Shown one piece after another: positions 3,901 through 64,000 of a DNA stretch of 64,000 nt. The stretch is from Antedon mediterranea. Taxonomy: Eukaryota > Echinodermata > Crinoidea > Comatulida > Antedonidae. The DNA lies in the NCBI RefSeq assembly GCF_964355755.1, contig NC_092674.1, positions 30,554,001-30,618,000 on the forward strand, in the 5' to 3' direction. A program made the translations under genes and the position numbers. Numbering within the stretch: the first letter of the stretch is position 1; each line of letters begins with the position of its first letter. A model generated the notes under the pieces. That model made no database searches and was not told where the DNA came from. It saw only the letters and a list, made by a program, of their open reading frames with translations.

Positions 3901-5945
3901 TTACTGCCCATCGCACCATGTTGTCCGGGAATACCAGGTACACCTGAAATGTTTAAACGTTATTATTGTTACTATATTGTATGACGTCATGACATCAACA
4001 TGGGCAGACATCTCGGTCCTAACGGGAAACAGATAGCCTACAGTTATTCCTGTCAGCTTACTCATATCAACTATCGGGATTTCACTCGATTTTAAACAAA
4101 ATGTCTTATCAAATCTCCCTATGTAATTTTATAATACTATTTCCCACAATATATTCCGATTCTTTATGGCGTATATTTAATTTGATCTTTATTAATTTGC
4201 AGTATAATTTTTATTTTTTAACTACTGTACCTTCACACACGCGCTGTCCGTTCCTAAAATAAACAAAAAACTGAAATGGCTATGCAATTTAAGTTCCAGT
4301 CCTACTATCGGTTTTTTTCTTCCTTCTTCCAAAGGGACACTGTATTGATTGATGGAAAGTGCCTGTTTCCAGTTACCTTTAGGGTCAAATCTATTATTTT
4401 AACTGCTCCCTTGTGTATAAAAGAGAGAAAATAGTTGAAACCAGGTTGTTGCAAGATGAACCCGGAAATTACTTTGACCCGGGAAGAATTGAAATTGAGT
4501 TGAAAATCTACTGTTGAAATCATAAATTGTGTTAAAAAACTCATTATAATATCTTCCTAAGATAGAAATATGGAAAAATAGCGTCGATGTGAAAATTAAT
4601 GTTATCAAATCTACGTTTCGCGGTACATCTGAGATAGATAAGGTAGGTGGTATCCAATGCGGAGATTTGTACCGAAGTTTTTGCATTGTGCTCGCCTATG
4701 TCAGAATTAACCATAATTTATATATATAGATACAATTCCCGTTATCAAATCGCACACATTTTCAAATTAATTACGTTTTCACATATCAGTGCCCCACCAG
4801 ACTGTCGAGTCAGAAAGTCATTCTAAAACACATGAGCATGTATATGCATCACTACGTAATTCAACCAGCACCAGTACGATTTCATCGTCATAAATCAAAT
4901 TGTATCAGCACCTCATTACTTAAATATTTCACCTTGACCACATTCGTAACATTTGATTTAGTTGTGGTTTTTAGTGGCGTGCAAAGGCGACTCTATAGCT
5001 CACAATGTCGGTCGGTCGGTTGGTTGGTCGGTCGGTAAACACTAACTCAAAATTGAGACTGCAGCAATGTATATGGCCTTGTTTATCAGAGATCCGCACA
5101 TTATATTATTTCTATACTTTACCCCAAATAATCCTTTTCCTCACATGGAGCTGCCGGGACTGGGCCGGCTGTTACCCTTCTGGCCTTTTGGGCCTGGTGG
5201 TCCTGTAGGGCCTGAAACAAATAATTATAGATATAGAAAATGTACAGAAATAGTTGATCATACCTCCTCCACCCAGATACTTATGATAATTGGCTCAATT
5301 TGAAATACCCAAAATACACATAAATGAATATTATACATATACTACGTTAATTTCGTCGTCAAACGATTATTCATTATTCTCGCATTTCCTTTATACTTAC
5401 ATGCTACGCAATTTTCATTGTCGGTGTTACGTTTCACGATGTGCTGTTGAGTCTAAAAGGAAATACATTTGTTTGTTTTGTTTTACGTTTAAAGTATAGT
5501 ATACTGTTTTATATATAGCTCAATGTTTGTATGACACAAAGCGGTAGAATGCAATCAAATTTGTATCTCTTTTTGATTATGATTTCCTTACAGTGTTGGT
5601 ATTTTACAGAAAGGTATATATGAAGATATCAATTGACGCGCGCGTACAAAGTCCGTACCATAGTATCAAGATTTTAACGCACGCGTCAAGCGTTGTCGCC
5701 TCGTTTGTTGCGTTACAGCAACGATACAAATAAGATGGAATGATACTCACCAGGTTATTACTTATTTTCTCTTCATACACATGAACTTTTGATTTCATTT
5801 CGAGAAACAAGTATCCTTGGTTGAAGAGAATCAAGGTCACAACAATAGAAATTATGACGTTGAACAATAGCTGTCCACGTGACGACGACGAAACATTACG
5901 ATTGGTTGTTTCACCAAGAATTCCGTACTCTTTCTCTGTTGACAT
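964..5945 (-). CDS. Transmembrane collagen with EGF-like tail, copy A (frameshifted relative to copy B)
   Basis: Coding exons in transcript order: 5751-5945, 5401-5452, 5145-5211, 3890-3943, 3557-3652, 2824-2850, 1922-2380, 1696-1716, 1282-1386, 964-1019. Exon 1 encodes a short cytoplasmic N-terminus (MSTEKEYGILGE) and one signal-anchor helix at about residues 25-48, so a type II membrane protein is expected. Exon 2 gives a stalk ending in a CxxC pair. Exons 3-7 encode Gly-X-Y repeats; exon 7 is an uninterrupted 153-triplet-codon block. Exon 9 is an EGF-like domain (CHPNPCKNGGTC...CSCKYC) and exon 10 a short tail ending MYGK. All junctions are phase 1 after exon 2, typical of collagen and EGF exons. 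Exon 3 is 67 nt against 63 nt in copy B because of a 4-bp insertion, which breaks the frame (total 1132 nt). The gene is therefore a pseudogene, is rescued by an upstream GTAACA donor in exon 3, or contains an assembly error. Likely role: cell-surface adhesion or matrix receptor (inference). Confidence 0.85.
3044..3125. repeat. Dispersed repeat tail with (AAT)n, SINE/LINE-like
   Basis: An AAT microsatellite followed by TATAGCGCACATACCACTC and AAGAGTGCTCAAGGCGC lies in an intron of gene A. The same arrangement recurs at 46527-46600 in the same orientation. This is a dispersed short element, probably a SINE or LINE 3' end with its simple-repeat tail. I recall similar motifs from echinoderm genomes, but I cannot name the family. 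Confidence 0.6.
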
Positions 5946-10900: not shown

Positions 10901-13354
10901 ACTGAGAGATTGGGATGTTCCATTCATCGCAAATCAATACATTTGTATAATCATATATTAAATCTATCAACATAGTATTTTTTAAAGAAAATCGGCCTGT
11001 CTTCAACATTATGATGGTGTACTCTAGCTGTTCAACCGGTTTTCAGCTATTAAAAACAATTATCGTAGGAGGAGATAGGAAAATGCGAAGCCTCCTCGCA
11101 TTTTTGTGGCGGGTATTTTTCAAGATGGACATCCATTAGACAGTGTATACCACGATCGGAAAACACCCCTATTTGAGGCAAATCGTTGAACCTAAATTCG
11201 TTTTAATCGTCAATAACTAATTATCTAACTTAATTTAATTAGTAAACAGGGTTACATCAGGTGGTTAAAATCAGTACCGAAAGTACGAACCAACTTTATA
11301 TACCATCGAGTAAAAATTCTAGAAGTAAGGCGTGATTTACCGAATTTTGCCCTTACGTAAATTTATATATAGACTAGATGGTACGCTCGCTTCGCTCGCG
11401 TACCATCTAGGTCGTGCCCACAGATGGTTCTCGAATACACAGTAATTTCAGGGTAAAAAATCTGGCGATTTCAAATGCACGTACCGCAGGACTTAACTAT
11501 AATACATTGTCGTTTACAGAAACGAATAAGTAGACACAATGATTTATGTAGTCAACCAAAATTAGCACCCTGGGAATTACTTCCGAAAGAGAAATTTACC
11601 ACAAAATGAGTCCAAATTGTTTATTCATTTAAAGAAACCCAATTAGGGTTGAGGGATGGGAAAGAGGATAGGTACAAAGAGGAACAATTTTTAAATATAT
11701 TCTTTATCCACGTCAGTAACGAAATATTGTTTTCATTTTTTATAGGCCTATAAATAATATACCACTAACGGTGACTAAATATAGTAAAACATTTGCGATT
11801 TAATACTTTGTTAAAACTGTCACTGTCATAATCGATTGAAATAGTAAAGTACATGTAACGATACACCACTACGACGTTTATATTTTTGTAATTATTAATT
11901 AATGCAAACATTGAGAAGCAACTGTCAGTAATAAAGTTTATTTGTATATTACGTGTTTATATATCTAACAGTAGAGCCTACCCATAATCACAGTAATAAA
12001 GTTTATTTGTATATATTTTTTTTACATCTAACAGTATTCACAGTAAGAAATGTTTGTATATATTTTTTTACATCTATTCACAGTAAGAAATGTTCGATTC
12101 AAATGACGACCAAAAATGGTTAATAGGACGTGTTTGCAGTACTGTATTGTCAAAGTATTGCAAGTTTATTCTCCAAGGGCTCATAAATTTACCTACTTGT
12201 GTTAAACCAAACTGGCAGACTGAGAGATTGGAATGTTCCATTCATCGCAAATCAATACATTTGTAAAAACGTAAATTAAATCTATCAAAATAGTATTTTT
12301 TAAAGAAAATCGGCCTGTCTTCAACATTATGATGCTGTACCCGAGCAGTTCAACCGGTTTTCAGCTATTTAACACAATTATCGTAGGAGGAGATAGGAAA
12401 ATGCGAAGCGTCCTCGTATTATTGTGTGCGGGTATTTTTCAAGTTGGACATCCATTAGACAGTGTATACCACGATCGGAAAACACCCCTATTTGGGGCAA
12501 ATCGTTGAACCTAAATTCGTTTTAATCGTCAATAACTAATTATCTAACTCAATTTAATTAGTAAACAGGGTTACATCAGGTGGTTAAAATCAGTACCGAA
12601 AGTACGAACCAACTTTGTATACCATCGAGTAAAAATTCTAGAAGTAAGGCGCGATTTACTGAATTTTGCCCTTACGTAAATTTATATATAGATTACTATG
12701 TTAAACGTAAAATCTCGTTTATGTTAATACTATAGTTTTAGAATGAACACTTTTCTATTCGTTTTCTGTTTAAAAAAAAGATATATTTATCGTATATTTT
12801 TCAATCAAACATGTTTTTACTTCGACAGAGTTGTGAGCTTGTTAGTGGGCATATTATTTGCTGTCACACAAATGAAGTATGGCGTGGAATCAAAAACTGT
12901 TTGTCCAACCTTTTGGGTTCCATTCCAAGAAAGCTGTTATCGTATCTTTGGAAACTTGTTGAACTGGAGTGACGCAGAGGAAAGTTGTAACAAGTACTTC
13001 AATGAGTTCGAAATGGGTCACATGGTTTCTATCAGAAGCTCTGTTGAAAATCGGTTTGTCGCAGACCTCTGGGAATCGGCTACTAATGGGCGGACCACTA
13101 CGCCTGTCCAAGGAGGTGTACCGGTTAACTACTGGATTGGCTTGAGCAACAAAGACAATGTATCTCGTTGGGTATGGAGTGATACCAGCGAAGAAGCGGT
13201 GTATACAGAATGGGCCCCATCTGAACCAAATTACTTGCAAGTGGATCACTGCGCCCATACTTGGCCAAAAAATGGAAATAGCCTAACTTGGAACAACTGG
13301 CGCTGTGACAAATTGTTGTTCTTTGTGTGTGAGCTGCCCCAAAGCCGACATTAG
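7946..13354 (+). CDS. Secreted C-type lectin, single CTLD, two exons
   Basis: Exon 1 (7946-7956) encodes M-Q-L plus two bases and ends at a perfect GTAAGTAT donor. Exon 2 (12829-13354) follows a pyrimidine-rich tract and CAG acceptor. The phase 2 junction joins them into a 178-residue protein starting MQLKVVSLLVGILFAVTQ, a textbook signal peptide, which is why I prefer this start to the in-frame ATG at 12743. The mature part is one long-form CTLD with six cysteines (VCPTFW, ESCYRIF, EESCNKYF, DHCAHTW, WRCDK, FVCE) and the WIGL core. The sugar-site loop has EPN, usually mannose type, but the usual WND is WNN, so one calcium ligand aspartate is replaced. The 4.9-kb intron is almost wholly transposon. 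Probable role: secreted carbohydrate recognition, perhaps immune (inference). Confidence 0.85.
8128..8240. repeat. (ATT)n microsatellite
   Basis: An imperfect ATT/GTT trinucleotide run directly abuts the 3' hairpin end of the first Helitron copy. It replaces the outer arm of that hairpin, which is complete in the other copies. Confidence 0.9.
8241..10060 (-). mobile_element. Helitron-like element, copy 1 (3' hairpin truncated, carries a nested insertion)
   Basis: Read on the minus strand, the element starts TCTATATATAAATTTACG at 10060. It ends at the GC-rich hairpin around 8241-8268, whose outer arm is lost into the ATT microsatellite. Its body matches the copies at 10064, 11374 and 22738. 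It differs by a ~630-bp TIR element inserted at 8379-9008. It encodes no Rep/helicase, so it is non-autonomous. Confidence 0.8.
8379..9008. mobile_element. Nested TIR DNA transposon or MITE inside Helitron copy 1
   Basis: The insertion begins TTAAAGCCCCATTCCCT and ends AGGGAAGGGGTCTTTAA, an imperfect terminal inverted repeat of about 16 bp. It interrupts Helitron sequence that is continuous in the copies at 10064 and 11374. No transposase reading frame is visible. A TAGGCCTA-rich segment lies inside it (8789-8824). Confidence 0.7.
10064..11373 (-). mobile_element. Helitron-like element, copy 2
   Basis: 1310 bp. On the minus strand it runs from TC at 11373 to CTAG at 10064. The terminal hairpin has 13-bp arms (CTAGATGGTACGC and its complement) around an 11-nt loop. 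It abuts copy 3 with no spacer (CTAG immediately followed by TC) and is separated from copy 1 by three bases. Confidence 0.85.
11374..12692 (-). mobile_element. Helitron-like element, copy 3
   Basis: 1319 bp, with the same TC start (12692) and hairpin-CTAG end (11374) as copy 2. Its right end is about 136 bp upstream of lectin exon 2. It retains a short open frame from 12401 (MRSVLVLLCAGIFQ) resembling a secretory signal peptide, which is altered in copies 1 and 2. Confidence 0.85.
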
Positions 13355-13435: not shown

Positions 13436-14290
13436 ATCTCGACGCGCCACCTAAAAACTCTCAATCCCAGTATAGCTTATGGCTCGACGCGTCACCTAAA
13501 AACTCTCAATCCCAGTATAGCTTTTGGCTCGACGCGCCACCTAAAAACTCTCAATCCCAGTATAGCTTATGGCTCGACGCGTCACCTAAAAACTCTCAAT
13601 CCCAGTATAGCTTTTGGGTCGACGCGCCACCTAAACACTCTCAATCCCAGTATAGCTTTTGGCTCGACGCGCCACCTAAACACTCTCAATCCCAGTATAG
13701 CTTATGGCTCGACGCGCCACCTAAACACTCTCAATCCCAGTATAGCTTATGGCTCGCGACGCGTCACCTAAAAACTCTCAATCCCAGTATAGCTTTTGGC
13801 TCGACGCGCCACCTAAACACTCAATTCCAGTATAGCTTATGGCTCGACGCGTCACCTAAACACTCAATCCTAGTATAGCTTATGGCTCGACGCGTCACCT
13901 AAACACTCAATCCCGGTATAGCTTTTGGCTCGACGCGTCACCTAAACACTCAATCCCAGTATAGCTTATGACTCGACGCGTCACCTAAACACTCAATCCC
14001 AGTATAGCTTATGGCTCGACGCGTCACCTAAACACTCAATCCCGGTATAGCTTATGGCTCGACGCGTCACCTAAACACTCAATCCCGGTATAGCTTATGG
14101 CTCGACGCGTCACCTAAACACTCAATCCCGGTATAGCTTATGGCTCGACGCGTCACCTAAACACTCAATCCCAGTATAGCTTATGGCTCGACGCGTCACT
14201 TAAACACTCAATCCCAGTATAGCTTATGGCTCGACGCGTCACCTAAACACTCAATCCCAGTATAGCTTATGGCTTGACGCGCCACCTAAA
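13436..14290. repeat. Minisatellite (~43-46-bp unit) in the lectin 3' UTR
   Basis: About 19-20 tandem units containing CTCGACGCGTCACCTAAACA and AATCCCAGTATAGCTTATGG. The first units are 45 bp and read through as one open frame; later ones are ~43 bp. The array starts about 80 bp after the lectin stop codon and ends before the polyadenylation signal at 14415, so it should be transcribed as most of the 3' UTR. Confidence 0.9.
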
Positions 14291-14414
14291 CAGTAATAAT
14301 AACAATAATAATAACAGTTAATATGAAATTCATTCATATCTTTGGAAGGAGATGATTTTATTTAACTTTAGTTATCATTTAATTGTATGTGAATTGATTA
14401 TACATCTCTGTTGA

Positions 14415-18300: not shown

Positions 18301-21300
18301 TCAATGTCACCACTAAACCCCGTCGTCATAACACCTCCCCACAACCAATTAGCTATACAATTGCAGGTGTTCCCAAATCACACCATCACTTCAATTGAAT
18401 ACGTCTTTATGGAAATTACGTAGACATTCGTAACATATTATTTCGTTGTTGTTTTTACAGTTTGGTTTTCACTAGCGACGCAACGCGAGGAGGTACGCGC
18501 AACGCAAGCGAGTTGACCAATGACAAGCCACTGTTCGAATAATCAAAATATAATAATTTTTGATTGGTCAAATCACTTACGTTGTGTTATGTCCTTGCGT
18601 TGCGTCAAAGAACTTATAACTTATATGTTATAATTTCTTTGGTTGCGTCGCTAGTGAGAAAACATTCACACATAGGCTATAGTATTGCTATACTTTACTA
18701 AAATAACCCTCACCTGGAACTGCGGGAACTGGGCTGTTACCCTTCTGGCCTTTTGGGCCTGGTGGTCCTTTGGGACCTGAAAGAAATAGGGGTCATGAAT
18801 ATAGGAAATTTGGTTTCATTATGCAAAAAAAAATGTTTAAAAATATAGAAATAGTGCTTCATGATGTGTCCAGGAAAAGTTGAATTGAACAGAATTGAAA
18901 TATTTAAAATTCACGTGTGTGTAATTTAGATACTACTGTAATACCAATTGTCAGTGAAAGAGCAAAATGAACAATTATTCATATTTACTGTGTATTCTCG
19001 GTTTTAATTTATACTTACACACTACACAATTCATTTATACTTACACACTACGCAATTCATTAATACTTACATACTACACAATTCATTAATACTTACACAC
19101 TACGCAATTCATTAATACTTACATACTACACAATTCATTAATACTTACACACTACGCAATTCATTAATACTTACATACTACACAATTCATTAATACTTAC
19201 ACACTACGCAATTCATTTATACTTACACACTACGCAATTCATTTATACTTACACACTACACAATTCATTTATACTTACACACTACACAATTCATTTATAC
19301 TTACACACTACGCAATTCATTTATACTTACATACTACACAATTCATTTATACTTACACACTACGCAATTCATTTATACTTACACACTACGCAATTCATTT
19401 ATACTTACACACTACGCAATTCATTTATACTTACACAATACGCAATTCATTTATACTTACATACTACGCAATTCATTTATACTTACACACTACGCAATTC
19501 ATTTATACTTACACACTACGCAATTCATTTATACTTACACACTACGCAATTCATTAATACTTACATACTACGCAATTCATTTATACTTACACACTACGCA
19601 ATTCATTTATACTTACACACTACGCAATTCATTTATACTTACACACTACGCAATTCATTTATACTTACACACTACGCAATTCATTTATACTTACACACTA
19701 CGCAATTCATTTATACTTACACACTACGCAATTCATTTATACTTACACACTACGTAATTCATTTATACTTACATACTACGCAATTCATTTATACTTACAC
19801 ACTACGTAATTCATTTATACTTACACACTACGTAATTCATTTATACTTACACACTACGTAATTCATTTATACTTACACACTACGCAATTCATTTATACTT
19901 ACACACTACGCAATTCATTTATACTTACACACTACGCAATTCATTTATACTTACACACTACGCAATTCATTTATACTTACACACTACTCAATTCATTTAT
20001 ACTTACACACTACGCAATTCATTTATACTTACACACTACACAATTCATTTATACTTACATACTACACAATTCATTTATACTTACACACTACGCAATTCAT
20101 TTATACTTACACACTACGCAATTCATTTATACTTACACACTACGCAATTCATTTATACTTACACACTACGCAATTCATTTATACTTACACACTACACAAT
20201 TCATTAATACTTACATACTACACAATTCATTTATACTTACACACTACGCAATTCATTTATACTTACACACTACGCAATTCATTTATACTTACACACTACG
20301 CAATTCATTTATACTTACACAATACGCAATTCATTTATACTTACATACTACGCAATTCATTTATACTTACACACTACGCAATTCATTTATACTTACACAC
20401 TACGCAATTCATTTATACTTACACACTACGCAATTCATTAATACTTACATACTACGCAATTCATTTATACTTACACACTACGCAATTCATTTATACTTAC
20501 ACACTACGCAATTCATTTATACTTACACACTACGCAATTCATTTATACTTACACACTACGCAATTCATTTATACTTACACACTACGCAATTCATTTATAC
20601 TTACACACTACGCAATTCATTTATACTTACACACTACGTAATTCATTTATACTTACATACTACGCAATTCATTTATACTTACACACTACGTAATTCATTT
20701 ATACTTACACACTACGTAATTCATTTATACTTACACACTACGCAATTCATTTATACTTACACACTACGCAATTCATTTATACTTACACACTACGCAATTC
20801 ATTTATACTTACACACTACGCAATTCATTTATACTTACACACTACGCAATTCATTTATACTTACACACTACGCAATTCATTTATACTTACACACTACGCA
20901 ATTCATTTATACTTACACACTACGCAATTCATTTATACTTACATACTACGCAATTCATTTATACTTACACACTACGCAATTCATTTATACTTACACACTA
21001 CGCAATTCATTTATACTTACACACTACGCAATTCATTTATACTTACACACTACGCAATTCATTTATACTTACACACTACGCAATTCATTTATACTTACAC
21101 ACTACGCAATTCATTTATACTTACATACTACGCAATTCATTTATACTTACACACTACGCAATTCATTTATACTTACACACTACGCAATTCATTTATACTT
21201 ACACACTACGCAATTCATTAATACTTACACACTACGCAATTCATTTATACTTACACACTACGCAATTCATTTATACTTACACACTACGCAATTCATTAAT

Positions 21301-24300
21301 ACTTACACACTACGCAATTCATTTATACTTACACACTACGCAATTCATTTATACTTACACACTACGCAATTCATTTATACTTACATACTACGTAATTCAT
21401 TTATACTTACACACTACGCAATTCATTTATACTTACACACTACGCAATTCATTAATACTTACACACTACGCAATTCATTCATACTTACACACTACGCAAT
21501 TCATTTATACTTACATACTACGCAATTCATTTATACTTACACACTACGCAATTCATTTATACTTACACACTACGCAATTCATTTATACTTACACACTACG
21601 CAATTCATTTATACTTACACACTACGCAATTCATTTATACTTACATACTACGCAATTCATTTATACTTACACACTACGCAATTCATTAATACTTACACAC
21701 TACGCAATTCATTTATACTTACATACTACGCAATTCATTTATACTTACACACTACGCAATTCATTTATACTTACACACTACGCAATTCATTTATACTTAC
21801 ACACTACGCAATTCATTTATACTTACACACTACGCAATTCATTTATACTTACACACTACGCAATTCATTTATACTTACACACTACGCAATTCATTTATAC
21901 TTACACACTACGCAATTCATTTATACTTACACACTACGTAATTCATTTATACTTACACACTACGTAATTCATTTATACTTACACACTACGCAATTCATTT
22001 ATACTTACACACTACGCAATTCATTTATACTTACACACTACGCAATTCATTTATACTTACACACTACGTAATTCATTTATACTTACACACTACGTAATTC
22101 ATTTATACTTACACACTACGCAATTCATTTATACTTACACACTACGCAATTCATTTATACTTACACACTACGCAATTCATTTATACTTACACACTACGCA
22201 ATTCATTTATACTTACACACTACGCAATTCATTAATACTTACATACTACGCAATTCATTTATACTTACACACTACGCAATTCATTAATACTTACATACTA
22301 CGCAATTCATTTATACTTACACACTACGTAATTCATTTATACTTACACACTACGCAATTCATTTATACTTACACACTACGCAATTCATTTATACTTACAC
22401 ACTACGCAATTCATTTATACTTACACACTACGCAATTCATTAATACTTACATACTACGCAATTCATTTATACTTACACACTACGCAATTCATTTATACTT
22501 ACACACTACGCAATTCATTTATACTTACACACTACGCAATTCATTAATACTTACATACTACGCAATTCATTTATACTTACACACTACGCAATTCATTTAT
22601 ACTTACACACTACGCAATTCATTTATACTTACACACTACGCAATTCATTAATACTTACATACTACGCAATTCATTTATACTTACACACTACGTAATTCAT
22701 TTATACTTACACACTACGCAATTCATTAATACTTACATCTATATATAAATTTACGTAAGGGCAAAAATCGGTCAATCGCGCGTTATTTCTAGAATGTTTA
22801 CTCGATGGTATATAAAGTTGGTTCGTACTTTCGGTACTGATTTTAACCACCTGATGTAACCCTGTTTACTAATTAAATTGAGTTCGATAATTAGTTATTG
22901 ACGATTAAAACGAATTTAGGTTCAACGATTTGCCCCAAATAGGGGTGTTTTCCGATCGTGGTATACACTGTCTAATGGATGTCAATTTGAAAAATACCCG
23001 CACACAATAATACGAGGACACTTCGCATTTTCCTATCTCCTCCTACGATAATTGTTTTTAATAGCTGAAAACCGGTTGAACAGTTCGAGTACAGTATCAT
23101 AATGTTGAAGACAGGCCGATTTTCTTTAAAAAATGCTATTTTGATACATGTAATATACGTTTTTACAAATGTATTGATTTGTGATGAATGGAACATTCCA
23201 AATTATTTGGTTTAACCATAGAGGTATAGATTTAGATTTATGGGCCCCCTTGGAGAATAAACATAAATAGTATTGCAATGCGGTACAATACTGTTAAGGT
23301 ATTAACCACTTTTGATCGCAATTTGAATCGCAAATTTCTTACTGTGAGTGTTGGTACTGTTAGATATAATATAAACAAATATACAAATAAACTTTATTAC
23401 TGTGAGTGTGGGTAGGCCCTACTGTTAGATTATAAACATATAATATACAAATAAATAAACGTTATTACTGACAGTTGCTTCTCAACGTTTGTATTAATTA
23501 ATAATTTAAAAATATATAAACGTCGTAGTGGTGTATCGTTACATGTACTTTACTATTTCAATCGACTATGACAGTGAGAGTTTTAACAAAGTATTAAATC
23601 GTAAATATTTTACTGTATTTAGTGGTATATTATTTATAGGCCTATAAAACATTAAAAACAATATTTCGTTACTGAGTGGATAAGAATATATTTTAAAATG
23701 TTTCCTCTTTGTACCTATCTTCTTCCCCCCTCCCTCAACCCTTAATGTTACATACAAAACACAAATTGGGTTTGTTTAAATGAGTCCAAATAAATAAATT
23801 TGACTCATTTTGTTTCTCTCTCGGAAGTAATTCCCAGGGTGCTAATTTTGGTTGACTACATAAATCATTGTGTATATTTATTCGTTTCTGTAAACGACAA
23901 TGTATTATAGTCCTGCAGTAGGCCTATGTACATTTGAAATCTCCATTTTTTTCTCGCTGGAAATACTGTGTATTCGAGAACCATCTGTGGGCACGACCTA
24001 GATGGTACGCGAGCGAAGCGAGCGTGCCATCTAGTACTACGCAATTCATTTATACTTACATACTACGTAATTCATTTATACTTACACACTACGCAATTCA
24101 TTTATACTTACACACTACGCAATTCATTAATACTTACACACTACGCAATTCATTTATACTTACACACTACGCAATTCATTTATACTTACACACTACGCAA
24201 TTCATTAATACTTACATACTACGCAATTCATTAATACTTACATACTACGCAATTCATTTATACTTACACACTACGTAATTCATTTATACTTACACACTAC

Positions 24301-27003
24301 GCAATTCATTAATACTTACATACTACGCAATTCATTTATACTTACACACTACGCAATTCATTAATACTTACACACTACGCAATTCATTTATACTTACACA
24401 CTACGCAATTCATTTATACTTACACACTACGCAATTCATTTATACTTACACACTACGCAATTCATTAATACTTACATACTACGCAATTCATTTATACTTA
24501 CACACTACGTAATTCATTTATACTTACACACTACGCAATTCATTAATACTTACATACTACGCAATTCATTTATACTTACATACTACGTAATTCATTTATA
24601 CTTACACACTACGCAATTCATTTATACTTACACACTACGCAATTCATTAATACTTACACACTACGCAATTCATTTATACTTACACACTACGCAATTCATT
24701 TATACTTACACACTACGCAATTCATTAATACTTACATACTACTCAATTCATTTATACTTACATACTACGTAATTCATTTATACTTACACACTACGCAATT
24801 CATTTATACTTACATACTACGCAATTCATTTATACTTACACACTACGTAATTCATTTATACTTACACACTACGCAATTCATTAATACTTACATACTACGC
24901 AATTCATTTATACTTACACACTACGCAATTCATTAATACTTACACACTACGCAATTCATTTATACTTACACACTACGCAATTCATTTATACTTACACACT
25001 ACGCAATTCATTTATACTTACACACTACGCAATTCATTAATACTTACATACTACGCAATTCATTTATACTTACACACTACGTAATTCATTTATACTTACA
25101 CACTACGCAATTCATTAATACTTACATACTACGCAATTCATTTATACTTACATACTACGTAATTCATTTATACTTACACACTACGCAATTCATTTATACT
25201 TACACACTACGCAATTCATTAATACTTACACACTACGCAATTCATTTATACTTACACACTACGCAATTCATTTATACTTACACACTACGCAATTCATTAA
25301 TACTTACATACTACTCAATTCATTTATACTTACATACTACGTAATTCATTTATACTTACACACTACGCAATTCATTTATACTTACACACTACGCAATTCA
25401 TTTATACTTACACACTACGCAATTCATTTATACTTACACACTACGCAATTCATTAATACTTACACACTACGCAATTCATTTATACTTACACACTACGCAA
25501 TTCATTAATACTTACACACTACGCAATTCATTTATACTTACATACTACGCATTTTTCATTGTCGGTGTTACGTTTCACGATGTGCAGTTGAGTCTAAAAT
25601 GAACATAAATTATTTTGTATAGCAGTATACCTTGATAGAATATTTAAATTAAAGCATAATGTTTGTATGTAGATGTATGATGTAGACTAAAGCGACATTT
25701 TATCGTTTACAAAAGGTTTTTGAAAGTAATGGTGTTCTTACAGTGCTAGTACTTTGCAGCAAGGCTAGCTTGTTTGCAGAAAGGTAATTTCAAATTTACG
25801 CGCGAATGCAAAAGCCGTACCATATTATCAAGATTTAAACACACGCGTCTAGTTGTCTCCTGCGTACTAATGAGTTTTGATTCTTCGTTTTAAAAGGAAA
25901 CTTATGTTTTTGTCCTCTTTATGTTTCTTTATAGATCAGCAAGTCTAACACTTTTATGTTGGACTCTGCGTCTAAATACTTACTTATTCGCAGAGTTTCT
26001 TTTTCATGCAATACAACCATTAAAGCTTGGTTCCCACTAGAACGTAACGCAAGGACGTAAACGCAACGCAAGCGTTTTAACCAATGACAAGCGAAGTTAT
26101 AGACAGTTAGCAATCACAAGCGAATAAATAAGCCATCGCTTGTGATTGGTCAATTCACTTGCGTTGCGTTACGTACTTGTGTTGCGTCGCTAGTGGGAAC
26201 CAAGCATTACGGTATTATTACACATTCTAATTCAATATTTACTTGTGCAAAATAGAATTCTATTAAACTAGTAAAATAAATGTTACTAACTTATAACATT
26301 AGTTACTAAGGCTGCGAATATGATAGATTTAAATTATCCTTTATATAAATAATATGAGAAAATGAGATCAAAAAGACTTAACTTGCTGAGATCATGCAAT
26401 AATCGGACAAAGATCGTGCAATAGTAGGACAAAGTTCATGCAATAGTCGGACAAAGAGATATTTTAATTCATTTGTACCTTGAAACTTTTAAATGACGTA
26501 TAATTTTGTGACTTAATCTTTTTTATCTGTACTTTTTTGATGTTTTATATTTTAATGAAATATGTTTATATAAGTGTTTCAACCTAATGTTTTATTTATT
26601 TTAATATATTTTTATATTCTATGAAATAAACTCAATATATATAATATTTTCCTTTTTACTGAGGACGAAATGAATGAATTGAATTGACATAAATTTGACG
26701 CGCGCGTACAAAGCATGTACCATATTATCACGATTTTAACGAACACGTCAAGCGTTGTCGCCTCATTTGTTGCGTTACAGCAACGACACATAAACATGAA
26801 ATGATACTCACCGGGATATTACTTATTTTCTCTTCATACACATGAACTTTTGATTTCACTTCGAGAAACAAGTATCCTTGGTTGAAGAGAATCAAAGCCA
26901 CAACAGTAGAAATGATGACGTTGAACAATAGCTGTCCACGTGACGACGAAACATTACGATTGGTTGTTTCACCAAGAATCCCGTACTCTTTCTCTGTTGA
27001 CAT
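15354..27003 (-). CDS. Transmembrane collagen with EGF-like tail, copy B (intact, 517 residues)
   Basis: Exons: 26812-27003, 25542-25593, 18714-18776, 18180-18233, 17949-18035, 17752-17778, 16523-17404, 16245-16274, 15750-15854, 15354-15415. They sum to 1554 nt with every junction in phase. The protein has a cytoplasmic N-terminus nearly identical to copy A, a membrane helix at residues ~25-47, a stalk with C79 and C82, and a Gly-X-Y domain up to ~462. The large exon 7 (294 codons) is an unbroken triplet run built from 45/54-bp repeats (unit core GPPGPKGSG). Then come an EGF-like domain (~463-497, seven cysteines) and a tail ending HLLQK. One short imperfection (GVG) is shared with copy A. 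Extra length over copy A comes almost wholly from exon 7 (882 versus 459 nt). Intron 2 (18777-25541) holds the 26-bp satellite. Expected at the cell surface as a disulphide-linked trimer (inference from family). Confidence 0.92.
15679..15716. repeat. Near-perfect palindrome CAGGGAAGAGTTAAATT
   Basis: CAGGGAAGAGTTAAATT is followed directly by its complement, ending ACTCTTCCCTG. A related inverted repeat (CCAGGGAAGAGTGAAATTA ... TTTCATTCTTCC) occurs at 41524-41572, so this is a dispersed mini-palindrome. Confidence 0.7.
16523..17404 (-). repeat. Coding minisatellite in gene B exon 7 (45/54-bp units)
   Basis: The exon consists mostly of tandem units of 15 or 18 residues ending GPPGPKGSG with variable lead-ins (GAQGAQGPK, GNRGAQGPR, GARGPQGAR). 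All lengths are multiples of nine bases, so copy number changes keep the collagen register. Copy A has the same exon at about half the length. Confidence 0.85.
18460..18664. mobile_element. MITE family 1, copy in gene B intron 3
   Basis: Termini AGTTTGGTTTTCACTAGCGA and GTCGCTAGTGAGAAAACAT form a clear inverted repeat with internal TTGACCAATGACAAG and TTGATTGGTCAA. The copy lies between exons 3 and 4 of gene B and is absent from the matching intron of gene A. Confidence 0.75.
19009..22737 (-). repeat. 26-bp satellite carrying a 5' splice site in every unit (left block, ~143 copies)
   Basis: Read on the minus (sense) strand, each unit contains TGCGTAGTGT|GTAAGTATAAATGAAT, which is the last ~9-10 nt of gene B exon 2 and the first 16 nt of intron 2. 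Units vary at a few positions (GTGT/GTAT before the donor, CGTAAT/CACAAT changes, TTTAT/TTAAT), while the donor motif GTAAGTAT is almost invariant. Units rich in the CACAAT variant cluster at the left, intron-distal edge. Confidence 0.95.
22738..24034 (+). mobile_element. Helitron-like element, copy 4, inserted in the 26-bp satellite
   Basis: 1297 bp starting TCTATATATAAATTTACG and ending with the hairpin GGTACGCGAGCGAAGCGAGC... and CTAG. The flanks are satellite ...CTTACA on the left and TACTACGC... on the right, which rejoin to a normal unit. Insertion was thus exactly between A and T with no target-site duplication, the Helitron signature. This site defines both ends of the family. No Rep/helicase is encoded. 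Confidence 0.92.
24035..25550 (-). repeat. 26-bp splice-donor satellite (right block, ~58 copies)
   Basis: Continuation of the 19009-22737 array beyond the Helitron, up to the genuine exon 2 boundary of gene B at 25542. The unit adjoining the exon is the true donor (GCGTAGTAT|GTAAGTAT). Longer multi-unit blocks recur within this part, for example around 24050, 24570 and 25140, so segments of several units were themselves duplicated. Confidence 0.95.
26021..26207. mobile_element. MITE family 1, copy in gene B intron 1
   Basis: The best-preserved copy. It starts TAAAGCTTGGTTCCCACTAG and ends GCTAGTGGGAACCAAGCATT, with internal AACCAATGACAAGCGA and TCGCTTGTGATTGGTCAA. The inverted arms are long enough to fold as a hairpin. 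It has no coding capacity. Confidence 0.85.
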
Positions 27004-29174: not shown

Positions 29175-32100
29175 TTAAACACCAAGTATATTTCCAGGAT
29201 TTCCTGCAAACAAGAAACAAAACAAAATAGGCCTAGGTTAAACGAGTATATATAAGGCTACATAAATTGTAATAGTGTAGGAACGACTTTGCTGTTATGT
29301 CTACTAGGCTAATAACATGAAGTTTGGTTCCCACTAGGACGCAACGCAATGAGAGAAAGTAAAGCTTGGTTCCCATTAGGACGCAACGCAATGAGAGAAA
29401 GTAAAGTTTGGTTTCCACTAGGACGCAACGCAATGAGAGAAAGTAAAGCTTGGTTCCCACTAGGACGCAACGCAATGAGAGAAAGTAAAGCTTGGTTCCC
29501 ATTAGGACGCAACGCAATGAGAGAAAGTAAAGCTTGGTTCCCATTAGGACGCAACGCAATGAGAGAAAGTAAAGCTTGGTTCCCATTAGGACGCAACGCA
29601 ATAAAAGAAAGAAAGTAAAGATTGGTTTCCACTAGGACGCAACGCAATAAAAGAAAGAAAGTAAAGATTGGTTTCCACTAGGACGCAACGCAATAAAAGA
29701 AAGAAAGTAAAGCTTGGTTTCCACTCGCGACGCAACGCAATAAGATGTGAGCGCGCGTTCGCATAGCAAGTAACTTGACCAATCACTACGCGCGCTGTGC
29801 TTACATTGTTGCGTTTCGCGTCCAAGTGGGAACTAAACCTTATTATCCCTGCATTTTACGCAGAACTGGAAAGTGTAAATGTTATTATTTTCCAACTCAT
29901 GTCATGAATGATGTTAACAATGATATTGGACTATTAGGGCTACTAATTGTGTTGACGTTACCGTTTCTTGTCCGCCGGATATGAATAATTATTACCAAAT
30001 ATATTATATTATAACAGTTACGTTTCAACATGCTATTACGAAGGAAAGATACGATGCAAGTACTGTATATGTAATTTACATTAAGACGATTACGGTTAAT
30101 ACTACATCAAAATTATTCAGTTAAATGAAGCTATACCTCCATGGTTAAATTGTGCATGGCACTGAAACTATACTTGTGGCGAGTACCTGCATGCTTGTTT
30201 TAATCAAGACAATCTCACGGATTGTTAGGTTACCTTGTTATAATACTGACGTTTTAAACCTACTGATATAAGTGCCAAATTGAGTATTAGGCGTAATCAT
30301 ACGGGACGCAACATTATACACATTGCTGTATATGGCGCCCCGTGTTTTATTTAGCGTGATGTGAGTTTGCGCAAATGATCTTAATAAAGCATAATGCTTT
30401 GTTGTGGCCCCGCGACACATCGTGAAAAAATCGAAAGTGTTTATCCAACATTGACCATACATTAGTTCCTATTATTTATCTTTAATATATTTACCAAGAC
30501 AAGATGCAGTATACTCAGATGACGATTAGACTACAATTAGTGTATAACGAGAGGTAATAAGAAACAAACTGGTTCCTAAAATGTGTATTTTTATAGGCCA
30601 ATCCGAGTATTTTTTTTAAATATAGTTACAATTTGTTTTCTTATTAACGATTTCTTCGATCGATATCAATATTTGGATCCGTTAAAAGTGAATGATCTAA
30701 ATTAATTCCTTCATGGTACAATGATATCGTTATCATGACGTAATAAAAATAAAGGAGATTGCTATCGAAGTCTGGTAGCAATGCTAATTGTTGCGTTGCA
30801 GTGTTCCGGAGCGTCACTAGTGCGTCGTCAGAACCGGAGCAATGCAACGCAACAAAATTATATCCATCATTTAAAATACACCAAAATGTTAAAGCTTACT
30901 TACATTTTAGTAGGTTGCAGTCAGTCAGCTCATTCTACTTACCAGTCTCCCCTTTGTCACCCTTTGGACCTTCAAATACACAATATAAAGTGTTACATAA
31001 CAAGTAATATAAAAGGTGATTAAAATGTAGAAAATATGTAACTAAACGCGTTTCATATCGGGTTATCGATAATTGAATGAAAAGAAATTTGTGAAATAGA
31101 TGTCATCATTTGTCGTCGTCGTCATCACCGCCATCTTCACATCGTTGTCATCCTAAAATTGTTATTCTTTTATTGAGCTCCATCAATATTTAAAGAGATA
31201 CTTAATATAAATTATCAGTCATCTTGTAGTACATACCGGGTGGTCCTGGTAAGCCATTGTTTCCATTTTGTCCTGGTGGTCCTAAAGATATAACATTAAT
31301 AAGAGTTACAAAGAAACTCTGACGTTATTTGTGACGTCGCAAAAACAAAAATCCCAAATTAATTAATTAAAATTTATATCTTATTTATTGCTAATAAAAA
31401 ATACCTTCTGAGCCTTGGTCTCCTTGTCTACCGGGAGGTCCTGTCGATCCTAAAAAAAAGCAAGTGACAACAAATAAGTATCGCAAACAATAGAATGTAT
31501 GAAAAACCTAACTTTTGACAATTCAACAATCTTGTGACAAATGATGATGAAAATGAGGAGGGTTTACTGACCTTTGAACCCGATTCCTCCTGGTTTGCCT
31601 GCTGCTCCTGGAAGTCCTAGAAAATTAAAATATTGATTCATTAAACGTTTTAATACTTAATACTTTATAATAAGATATAAATTAATAATTAATATTTTAA
31701 TTTAAATAGAATTGTATTTTTCTTACCAACAGGGCCCGGAGGTCCAACGGAACCTTGTACTCCTAGAAAACCTGGGTAAAGAAAATGAAGATGAAAAAGG
31801 TTGTCATTACAAGTATTCTATCTGTACATCTATCTAAGTAGAGCACTGCGTTGTTTAAGATGCTGGTAGTATACAACAATCATCCTACTACACATCGATA
31901 TTACTACAATTAAGTGAGTATGGATTATAGTTATCTTTTATTATATCTTCTATTTTTAGGTAATACAATGCAATAACGTACCGCGTGGGCCTGGTGGTCC
32001 GTCAGGTCCTAGCGGGCCAGGGTCACCTGTAATGAAATCATATCTTTGTTTAAGTACCTGGTATACAAACAATATTAAACTTCAATTGTGACAATAATAT

Positions 32101-46813: not shown

Positions 46814-46971
46814 GAATTATTTGAATTCTGTTAGATGATCTCATGTTATAATCTCGAATTATTTGAATTCTGTTAGATGATCTCATGTTATAATCTCGAA
46901 TTATTTGAATTCTGTTAGATGATCTCATGTTATAATCTCGAATTATTTGAATTCTGTTAGATGATCTGATG
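46814..46971. repeat. 42-bp tandem repeat (4 copies) just after the POLR1D stop codon
   Basis: Units start GAATTATTTGAATTCTGTTA at 46814, 46856, 46898 and 46940. The array begins 8 bp downstream of the POLR1D stop codon on the minus strand, so it is in the 3' UTR. The frame that translates it into a 14-residue repeat is not the POLR1D frame. Confidence 0.9.
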
Positions 46972-46978
46972 TAATTTG

Positions 46979-49582: not shown

Positions 49583-52500
49583 ATGTCAATCTTGTATGCA
49601 ACGGTCACACGAGGGACTACCATACTTGCACGGTACGCATCATGCCAGGGGAATTTCTCGGAGGTAGTGGAGCAGATTTTATTAAAAGTTTCACCCGAGA
49701 ATGCCAAACTGACATACTCGCATGGCAGCTACTTATTCCACTATGTAACAGAAGACAGGATTACATATTTATGCATCACAGATGATGTGAGTATTTTAAT
49801 GGAGATAGATTATCAATAAAATTGTTGAAATAAAGTACGTACAGTAGACGATTTACAAGCCCCTTCTCCCTAAATTTTGAAAATTACAATGCAAAAAATT
49901 TAACATTACATTAAAATCTCTGGTTTATAGAAAATAAACATAGATATGCAAAAATTAACCAAATAAAGCACAAGTATGAATGCACTGTGAACAATATGAC
50001 GCACTCTCATCTTTATATATATCTTTTATATTTATTTATTTATTTATATTCAACTTATACAAAAAACATATTAATGAAGGATAGGACCAGACAGGTGGTA
50101 AACACCTAAAACGGTCCAGCCCAATTGCACAACAAAAACGTATATAAAATTATAATAAATCCATAGGCAAATTACTGAAAAAAATGACAATGCTGTGGGT
50201 ATCAGTGGCTGGATATCAATGGAGATACAAAAAAAAAGCGAAAAGCTAAATCAAAATGATAAGTAAAACAGCCAGAAAAGTTAGCAGAGCTTTCGGACAA
50301 CACTAGCCCTTCATCAGTGCAAAGTAAAATAAAATTATAATAAATATATATAATGGCCAATATAGCATATTAAAGAAATAAGTATTTTATAAGACATTGT
50401 GTACTAAAATGTTGAGATTATTAATATACTTTCACTTTCATTATTATCTACACAATTGGCTATATAACAATTTTCTTAATATTAAGTAAGGATTTCTACA
50501 TTCTGTAAACATGAAACTAGAAAGTAGAACTAGAATGTCCAGGCCTTTGCAACAACATTCTTTTCCGATTGTTATAATTAAAGATAAATTGTCCCCTAAA
50601 CATTTTTTTTGTTTAAACATCTTTAAATAAACATTGCACTTTTATTATTTTTTAGGATTTTCAGCGGTCTAAAGCATTTATGTATTTGAGTGAAATATCC
50701 AGAAAGTTTTCCAACAACTATGGATCTAGAGCACAAACAGCTCTGCCTTTTGCAATGAATAGTGAATTCTCACAGATTTTAGCAACAGAAATGGTAAATA
50801 TTAATCATTCACTAGCAGGGCAATTTGCTAATTTTGTCAAAGATTGGTCTCCCAGAAGGCCCAGTTATGATCAGTGGCTGTGTGAGTACTAGTACACCGG
50901 AGTAACCCCCTTACTAGAAGGGCAATTTGTTATTGGTGTATAGACTACTCCTCTCCAACCTTTAAAGACCGTTATTGGTGTATAGACTACTCCTCTCCAA
51001 CCTTTAAAGACCGTTATTGGTGTATAGACTACTCCTCTCCAACCTTTAAAGACCGTTATTGGTGTATAGACTACTCCTCTCCAACCTTTAAAGACCATTA
51101 TTGGTGTATAGACGACTACTCTCCAACCTTTAAAGACCGTTATTGGTGTATAGACTACTCCTCTCCAACCTTTAAAGACCGTTATTGGTGTATAGACTAC
51201 TCCTCTCCAACCTTTAAAGACCGTTATTGGTGTATAGACAACTACTCTCCAACCTTTAAAGACCGTTATTGGTGTATAGACTACTCCTCTCCAACCTTTA
51301 AAGACCGTTATTGGTGTATAGACTACTCCTCTCCAACCTTTAAAGACCGTTATTGGTGTATAGACGACTACTCTCCAACCTGTGGAGAGATATCCTCAAT
51401 GCCTACAATAATTATTATATTTATTTTATCAATGTAATACAAGCATAATGTAATGTAATACAACTGTTTTGATTCAATCTAATATTATTTTCAGATGAAA
51501 TTTGCAGACAACAAAGGCGGTGACAAGCTAACTCAAGTACAGAATGATTTAGATGAATTAAACAGGATTATGGTGAAAAATATTGGTAAATATCTTGTTT
51601 GACCTTAGAACAATGACCTGGGATCGTCCCAGTTGATACAGTCAACTCTCCCGATACCGAACACCTTTGAACTGGCCTAGTAATATTTCTGGTTTTCAAC
51701 AAATTCTGGTATTGAATTTGGGACCTTTTGGGCCTCAAGAAAAGTCTGGTTTTTGGAGAGTTTCCGGTTTTCACAGAGTCCAGAGAGTTGACTACCCTAT
51801 ATATTATTAAGTCTGTATTCCTTTACCTGTAATAACTCAATAATAAAAAAACTACTGTTGTTTCAGATACGATAACAAACAGGGGAGAGCGCTTAGAATT
51901 ACTTGTTGATAAGACAGAAGACCTTGAAGCTAGTGTAAGCAGAATACATTTATTGTATTACAGTAACTAACAACTTTTAAAAAAGAACAACCCATGCAGT
52001 TTTCAAAAGAATTGATTTTAAGAGATCCACTGTATTAAATAAAATGCATTCAGTCATATTTAAGAGGTCCACTGTATTAAATAAAATATCATATTTCTTT
52101 AAAGTAGTCGCTAGGCAATGCTTAGTTTGTACTGATGTTTAAATCTCTGTCTACACTATCAAATTGTATGACCAAAAAATGTGATGTGTCCATATATGGA
52201 CATAATGATGTCATATCACCACCATATTTGGGCACATCACACTTTTTGTCAAACTAGTTTGATAGTGTAGACAGAGCTTTATACAGAAAGACTACTGTAC
52301 TTTCTACTGCACTTCTTATTTGAGATTATAACTTTACTTATTGTCAATTGTTTAAATAGTTAAAATGTGTTGTTTATTTGTAGTCACTGACATTTAAGAA
52401 GACAAGTAAAAACCTCTCCCGATCAATGTGTTTAAAGAATGCCAAGTTTACCATCATTCTTGTTGTTATTATAATTGTAAGTATAAACTAATTTCTTCTT

Positions 52501-62282: not shown

Positions 62283-64000
62283 TTTTTTTTCTAATTAAAG
62301 ATCGCTTTGCCTAAACACCTCCAATTAGGGACCATTATATTATTTGGTATGTGAAAAGACAAGAAGAATAAATAATTGTTAAGTATGTGACAAAAACAAG
62401 TAAATGAAGTGGTCCTCTTCCAATTAAAAATCACTTTACCTAAAACACCTCCAATTAGCGACCATTTTATTATTTAGTATTAATAAAGCAAGAAGAATAT
62501 ATAGTTATTAATTATGTGACAAAAAACAAGTAATTGTACTGGACCTCTTTCAATAAAGGACCACTTTACTTAAAACACCTCCAATTAGCGACCATTTTAT
62601 TAATTGGTATGAGTAAAGACAATAATAATTAATAGTTTTAATTATGTGACAAAATTAAGTAACTGTCTGACTGGTCCGCTTCCAATTAAAGATCACTTTA
62701 CTTTAAGACACCTCTAATTAGTGACCATTTTTATTAATTGGTATGAGTAAATACAAGAAGAATACATAGTTTTAATTATGTGACAAAATTAAGTAAATGT
62801 ACTGGTCCGCTTCCAATTAAAGGTCACTTTACTTTAAGACACCTCTAATTAGCGACCATTTTATTAATTGGTAGGAGTAAATACAAGAAGAATACATAGT
62901 TTTAATTATGATAGTGACAAAATTAAGTAACTGTACTAGTCCTCTTCCAGTTATAGATCACTTTACTTAATGAAACCTCCAATTAGCGACCATTATATTA
63001 TTTAGTATTAATAAAGCAAGAAGAATATGTAGTTATTAATTATGTGACAAAAAACAAGTAATTGTACTGGTCCTCTTTCAATAAAGGACCACTTTACTTA
63101 AAACACCTCCAATTAGCGACCATTTTATTAATTGGTATGAGTAAAGACAATAATAATTAATAGTTTTAATTATGTGACAAAATTAAGTAACTGTACTGAC
63201 TGGTCCGCTTCCAATTAAAGATCACTTTACTTTAAGACACCTCTAATTAGTGACCATTTTTATTAATTGGTATGAGTAAAGGCAAGAATAATTAATAGTT
63301 TAATTATGTGACAAAATTAAGTAAATGTACTGGTCCGCTTCCAATTAAAGGTCACTTTACTTTAAGACACCTCTAATTAGCGACCATTTTATTAATTGGT
63401 AGGAGTAAATACAAGAAGAATACATAGTTTTAATTATGATAGTGACAAAATTAAGTAACTGTACTAGTCCTCTTCCAGTTATAGATCACTTTACTTAAAG
63501 AAACCTCCAATTAGCGACCATTATATTATTTAGTATGAATAAAGACAAAAAGAATACATAGTTTTAATTTTGTGACAAAAACAAGTAATATTGTACTGGT
63601 CCTCTTCCATTAAAAACCACTTTACTTATAGACACCTCCAATTAGCGACCATTTTATCAATTGGTATGAGTAAAGACAATAATAATTAATAGTTTTAATT
63701 ATGTGACAAAATTAAGTAAATGTACTGGTCCGCTTCCAATTAAAGGTCACTTTACTTTAAGACACCTCTGATTAGTGACCATTTTTATTAATTGGTATGA
63801 GTAAAGACAATAATAATTAATAGTTTTAATTATGTGACAAAATTAAGTAACTGTACTGGTCCGCTTCCAATTAAAGATCACTTTACTTTAAGACACCTCT
63901 AATTAGTGACCATTTTTATTAATTGGTATGAGTAAAGGCAAGAATAATTAATAGTTTAATTATGTGACAAAATTAAGTAAATGTACTGGTCCTCTTCCAA
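62283..64000. repeat. ~130-bp satellite in the presumed ILK intron 1, running off the window
   Basis: About 13 units, each with CACCTC(C/T)AATTAGCGACCATT, ATTAATTGGTATGAGTAAA, TTTTAATTATGTGAC and TACTGGTCC(T/G)CTTCCAATTA. Variant units recur roughly every four repeats (for example the GATAGTGACAAAATTAAG form at ~62910 and ~63437), giving a ~525-bp higher-order period. Positions 61300-62280 hold no recognisable gene. Confidence 0.92.

Follow-up and report, generated by a model that had tools for sequence, protein, structure and literature searches.

How a gene comes to carry a splice donor repeated in tandem some 200 times beside one of its exons, and how it can do so and still encode a protein, is the question raised by a locus of the crinoid Antedon mediterranea. 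The locus lies in a window of 64,000 nucleotides (contig NC_092674.1, positions 30,554,001 to 30,618,000 of the forward strand), which is the whole stretch of DNA analysed, and positions given below without a contig label refer to this window.

The gene concerned, gene B, is read from the minus strand, from exon 1 (27003-26812) to the stop codon in exon 10 (15354). Its ten exons, joined at AG/GT borders, give 1,554 nt and an uninterrupted protein of 517 aa, in which a membrane segment is predicted and collagen repeats and an EGF domain are recognised (Pfam Collagen and EGF). Exon 1 encodes the N-terminus with the predicted membrane segment, and ends at the donor GTGAGT. Exon 2 (25593-25542; 52 nt, phase 0 to 1) ends at the border TGCGTAGTAT/GTAAGTATAAATG, with the true donor GT at 25541-25540. 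Exon 3 (18776-18714), in which the collagen repeats begin, lies at the other end of the expanded intron, behind the acceptor TTTCAG, and is followed by exons 4-6 (18233-18180, 18035-17949, and 17778-17752) and exons 7-10 (17404-16523, 16274-16245, 15854-15750, and 15415-15354), which carry collagen repeats, the EGF domain, and the stop. The initial annotation held that the array is bounded by a genuine exon 2 donor, and this is confirmed by an exon that is in frame with the nine others and whose acceptor, frame, and donor are conserved in the paralogs A, C, D, and E.

The array itself occupies positions 19007-25551 on the minus strand, with a period of 26 bp (TRF) and the gene-strand unit GTAAGTATAAATGAATTGCGTAGTGT, which directly adjoins the last base of exon 2 and continues down to 19007. 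The unit carries the tail of exon 2 plus GTAAGTAT. It is of minisatellite size and spans a genuine border, with sequence from both the exon and the intron, and the array begins with the canonical donor, which it repeats. On the gene strand, GTAAGT occurs 202 times in this stretch; mononucleotide shuffles of the stretch contained its complement, ACTTAC, 5.6 times on average and at most 12 times. Two hundred of the spacings between the GTAAGT sites are exactly 26 bp, and the remaining one is 1,323 bp, due to the presence of a Helitron-like insert of 1,297 bp. An array of about 200 copies of a 26-bp unit, which had been placed at 19009-25550, is thus borne out almost to the base. The TRF figure of 251.8 copies was dropped as a unit count, since it includes the insert. 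Only five of the 26 columns of the unit are variable, and GTAAGT is intact in all 202 units.

The insert (22738-24034, plus strand), the ends of which were read from the sequence, begins with TCTATATATA, finishes with a hairpin followed by CTAG, and lies in an A/T target, ends that we take to be of the Helitron type. Related pieces appear to be present elsewhere in the window, where similar frames are found near 10951 and 12275. An open frame of 753 aa on the plus strand (19810-22071) is formed by the array alone, which is free of stops in that direction. Other minisatellites of the window have units of 42-43 bp (13438-14292, 29320-29745, 46814-46972, and 50929-51381), and a 130-bp satellite runs past the end of the window (62289-64000).

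The single-copy state of the locus can be read from the paralogs. The genome contains exon 1 of this gene family five times, within 80 kb of contig C5, and the intron that follows exon 2 has an identical position in A, B, C, D, and E. In paralogs A, C, and D, there is a single donor segment, with alignable flanks on both sides; in A, for example, exon 2 lies at 5452-5401 on the minus strand and its donor, GTAAGT, at 5400-5395, and the intron measures approximately 0.18 kb, against approximately 6.8 kb in gene B. The proposal that the array grew in place from a splice donor, with A retaining one copy of the segment, is therefore upheld, and the array of gene B appears, from this alignment, to have expanded in situ from the donor of exon 2. 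Paralogs A and C are identical over the aligned stretch, 19,781 bp apart, and represent a recent duplication.

Paralog E has a second array with the same unit as gene B (C5:30499741-30504546), of approximately 170 units and with inserts of its own, in which the donor has been lost in nine of the 171 units. The two arrays differ in length within this one assembly, and a genome search that skips very common words did not find the unit outside B and E. They may derive from one ancestral array, with a subsequent loss in A, C, and D, or from an exchange between B and E. A recent exchange was dropped as a firm claim, given that B and E share only about 68% identity in their intron flanks, even though the coding dS is approximately 0.08-0.1. 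Intron 1 of gene E (C5:30504k) matches that of A, C, and D almost perfectly, with a lower match in exon 1, a pattern that likely reflects a patch of gene conversion. In A (5150-5213) and C (C5:30539k), exon 3 has a 4-bp insertion and its donor has changed from AG to AT, so that the exon measures 67 nt rather than the 63 nt found in B, D, and E, which is probably a frameshift.

The process would have begun when the 26 bp that span the exon 2 donor were duplicated in tandem. This event may have been seeded by TGCG or AATTGCG, which forms a short direct repeat, 26 bp apart, on either side of this donor. In paralog A, TGCG is repeated across the donor at exactly this distance, but 4-bp matches are also present at several other offsets, together with one 6-bp match at 44 bp, and seeding by direct repeats is thus plausible rather than significant. 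The array may then have reached 202 units through slippage or unequal exchange, in part by the duplication of about 22 units at a time. The order of the unit variants in gene B is a sign of such events, as a block of approximately 22 units has been copied again and the autocorrelation is highest at 22 units.

Splice signals are also involved in the tandem duplication of AGGT segments that leads to the gain of introns (for a review, see PMC4974935). That process creates a new intron, whereas the intron of gene B was already common to the five paralogs, and this origin was rejected on the basis of the shared intron position.

The consequences of the repeated donors for the RNA can be predicted in some detail. 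The U1 genes of the host genome begin with ATACTTACCTG, and every unit of gene B pairs perfectly with this 5' end at positions +1 to +8, with the exon side (TGT or TAT) remaining unpaired. The predicted pairing energy is −7.3 kcal/mol, equal throughout the array, against −14.0 kcal/mol for CAG/GTAAGTAT, and the donors of the array are predicted to be weaker than most of the other donors in gene B. The description of the units as near-perfect consensus donors is therefore appropriate for the intron side, but fails on the exon side. Given the equal predicted strength of all the units, the real donor can be distinguished by its position only. Use of the second or any later donor adds 26n nt to the message and leads to a stop four codons on, and the products extended by one to three units all end at aa 85, with ...CVVCKYK and the stop. 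The full-length protein is obtained only via the first donor. Blurred donor choice, the loading of U1, and a splicing or expression dial, as put forward in the initial annotation, are hypotheses. The genes of the U1 snRNA number at least 42, in one tandem cluster (C5:15664856-15752909), and with U1 genes so abundant, the sequestering of U1 by one gene is unlikely.

The initial annotation knew of no described tandem repeat of this size built from a donor site, but comparable elements have been published. In amphioxus, minisatellites known as "mirages" extend across the exon-intron boundaries of Adh3, the globins BflGb6 and BflGb9, TnC, and PGBD5, with units of 10-160 bp and, in BflGb6, six and three copies, and regular mRNA with undisturbed splicing is either expected or reported (PMC3087553, PMC3902484). 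Like the present arrays, mirages consist of a short exon-edge segment in tandem, with its AG or GT signals, and involve both donor and acceptor edges within one genome; their copy numbers are low in the cases counted, in contrast with the 202 and approximately 170 units found here.

The VNTR in intron 18 of the human ABCA7 gene has a 25-bp unit and 12-427 units, reaching 10.7 kb, and the first two bases of the unit form the donor of exon 18 (PMC5954066). The donor of its second unit is sometimes used, which results in the retention of one unit and a frameshift to a stop, and an increase in its length is correlated with reduced expression and more frequent skipping of exon 19, although the authors did not ascribe the lower expression to the retention of units (PMC5954066). 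As in gene B, the repeat begins at the donor, the unit is short, and a later donor leads to a stop. The ABCA7 repeat is, however, C-rich and is described as beginning with the GT, whereas the unit of gene B is AT-rich and includes exon sequence, and it is in ABCA7 that the effects of length were measured. The minisatellite of human IFI6 (6-16), with its multiple splice donors (Turri et al. 1995, as reported in PMC4526556 and PMC2915984), resembles the array of gene B in that its units lie where an exon ends. In IFI6, these units act as alternative donors and yield different protein isoforms, whereas in gene B every later donor leads to a stop. The array of gene B belongs to this known kind of element and is unusually large, albeit with a size within the ABCA7 range.

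Taken together, the array is best explained, with a probability of roughly 0.78, as an exon-edge minisatellite of the mirage or ABCA7-VNTR kind that is tolerated through the use of its first donor. The spliceosome would normally take the exon-proximal donor, which is the first to be transcribed, leaving the mRNA unchanged and the later units as inert intron, and the array would be tolerated, as a nearly neutral feature, because this donor is used. If unit 2, 3, or a subsequent unit were occasionally used, the message would gain 26n nt and soon meet a stop, and would be non-productive. The anatomy and position of the array, the single-copy paralogs, the coding consequence, and the recurrence at other exon edges are observed, while the route of duplication, the preference for the first donor, and the near-neutrality are inferred from the exact spacing in an intact gene, the block duplications, the losses in array E, the arrays at independent loci, and the undisturbed splicing reported for mirages. 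Given the use of the second unit and the effects of length in ABCA7, strict neutrality may nevertheless fail in the case of 202 units.

In an unlikely, although not negligible, alternative, copy number would act as a dial, with additional units diverting splicing to unproductive donors, or slowing the splicing of exons or causing them to be skipped, and lowering the expression of genes B and E. The equal predicted strength of units that are all perfectly complementary to the U1 5' end at +1 to +8, the unproductive outcome of all the later donors, and the correlations of VNTR length with expression and exon skipping in ABCA7 (PMC5954066) would be consistent with such a role. The decay of donors in array E argues against it, as does the fact that the ABCA7 authors did not blame unit retention for the lower expression (PMC5954066). 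A broader version, in which donor copy number would set the productive fraction of B (and E) transcripts, as a rheostat maintained in the two paralogs, and the genome would tolerate, and perhaps exploit, such arrays in DHX8 and other essential genes, is more doubtful still.

The complete preservation of GTAAGT in gene B could be taken as a hint of constraint, although the probability that the five variable columns would all miss this motif by chance is 0.24, or 0.13 for GTAAGTAT. Selective protection of GTAAGT is not supported, given these values and the nine donors lost among the 171 units of array E; special sparing of the donors was seen in neither of the two arrays, and their sequences offer no support for selective maintenance. 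This makes it very improbable that the donors have been kept by selection as binding sites for U1, which would shield a long intron from premature polyadenylation. That view draws on the absence of broken donors among the 202 units of B and on the growth of the intron from approximately 0.18 kb in A to approximately 6.8 kb in B, but it is weakened by the 0.24 probability of chance avoidance and the losses in E, and no need for protection would have arisen had the array not lengthened the intron in the first place.

Arrays whose unit contains an exon end, a prospect raised by the initial annotation, were found at other loci in addition to paralog E. The survey covered all the sites with three AGGTAAGT motifs within minisatellite distance, and recovered approximately 16 arrays, two of which are simple repeats; the flanks were examined for the larger AGGTAAGT arrays and for several AGGTGAGT arrays. 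A survey with a fixed pattern misses arrays with an imperfect exon-side consensus, and B and E themselves have no AGGTAAGT match. Control patterns read backward matched arrays as frequently as AGGTAAGT, and there is thus no evidence of a genome-wide excess of AGGTAAGT arrays. Some overlap between arrays and exon edges is what many genic minisatellites would give. The placement of the array at a donor was not established on inspection for the AGGTAAGT or AGGTGAGT arrays L051, L054, L055, L061, L063, L065, and L069.

These counts also bear on the possibility that the array of gene B is an ordinary intronic satellite that contains GTAAGT by chance, or an artefact of the assembly. The genome is rich in minisatellites, the backward controls match as many arrays as AGGTAAGT, and several AGGTAAGT arrays lie away from exon ends, all of which would suit a chance satellite; an array that begins precisely at the donor of exon 2, with a unit that contains the tail of the exon, the recurrence of the same unit in the same place at a second locus (E), and the presence of a Helitron-like element within the array leave this explanation with almost no probability.

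Beyond gene B, exons were called from open frames, splice signals, and protein similarity, where given. In DHX8, itself a splicing helicase, a donor-edge array of approximately 23 units of 37 bp (C1:17776256-17777062, in locus L053, C1:17776132-17777323) lies between an exon that ends ...MQIHLTEPP/GTAAGT and the next exon, GDILMFLTGQEEID (GDILMF). The gene is single copy, and its match to human DHX8 across the junction is free of gaps (102 aa, E 6.7e-58). In TDP2, also single copy, approximately 29 units of 31 bp are found at a donor edge (C1:41208070-41208946, in L052, C1:41207899-41209233), and the match to the homologue is contiguous across the array (1.3e-18). A PNPLA6/7-like gene (C4:23.49 Mb, L080, C4:23486500-23495500), so named from a reading of the domain order, has about 26 copies of a degenerate 20-bp unit at a donor edge, with exons for cyclic-nucleotide binding downstream (domain tested). 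A rabaptin-like gene (C3:18.14 Mb, L081, C3:18135500-18144500) has 23 copies of a 17-bp unit with GTGAGT at a donor edge, and the Pfam Rab5-bind match falls on an exon further downstream. Two weaker donor-edge cases, a three-copy array (L067) and an array at a possible 5'UTR exon (L062), involve exons for which no protein similarity was found.

Acceptor edges are affected in DDX54 (39-bp unit, 2.6 copies; L077) and in two unnamed genes with units of 24 bp (L076) and 28 bp (L071), and in all three the exon-proximal acceptor is retained. These arrays refute the idea that donors are the sole seeds of such elements, and expansion at exon edges thus recurs at several genes, and on both sides of the exon, within one genome. 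In each of the coding donor-edge cases, read-through runs into a stop after no more than about a dozen codons, and in all the exon-edge cases, the intact protein needs the exon-proximal site. The strongest support for the prevalence of the first donor, albeit indirect, comes from DHX8 and TDP2, which are conserved and single copy.

The array of gene B is not the first of a new kind of element, but an intact gene that would choose the first among 202 donors of equal predicted strength represents a clean natural test of 5' splice site choice, in which position and transcription order, rather than sequence, are at issue. Its recurrence in DHX8, TDP2, and other genes within one genome provides replicates of what would otherwise be a curiosity, and supports the recognition of exon-edge minisatellites, including the ABCA7 disease VNTR, as a recurrent class. 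A further 34-bp array with AGGTGAGT recurs within 1.6 Mb (C3:20094304-21652347; L068 and others), seemingly after a short exon-like stretch, DAPIAAPLATSSLGTGIG, and possibly represents a gene family with donor arrays.
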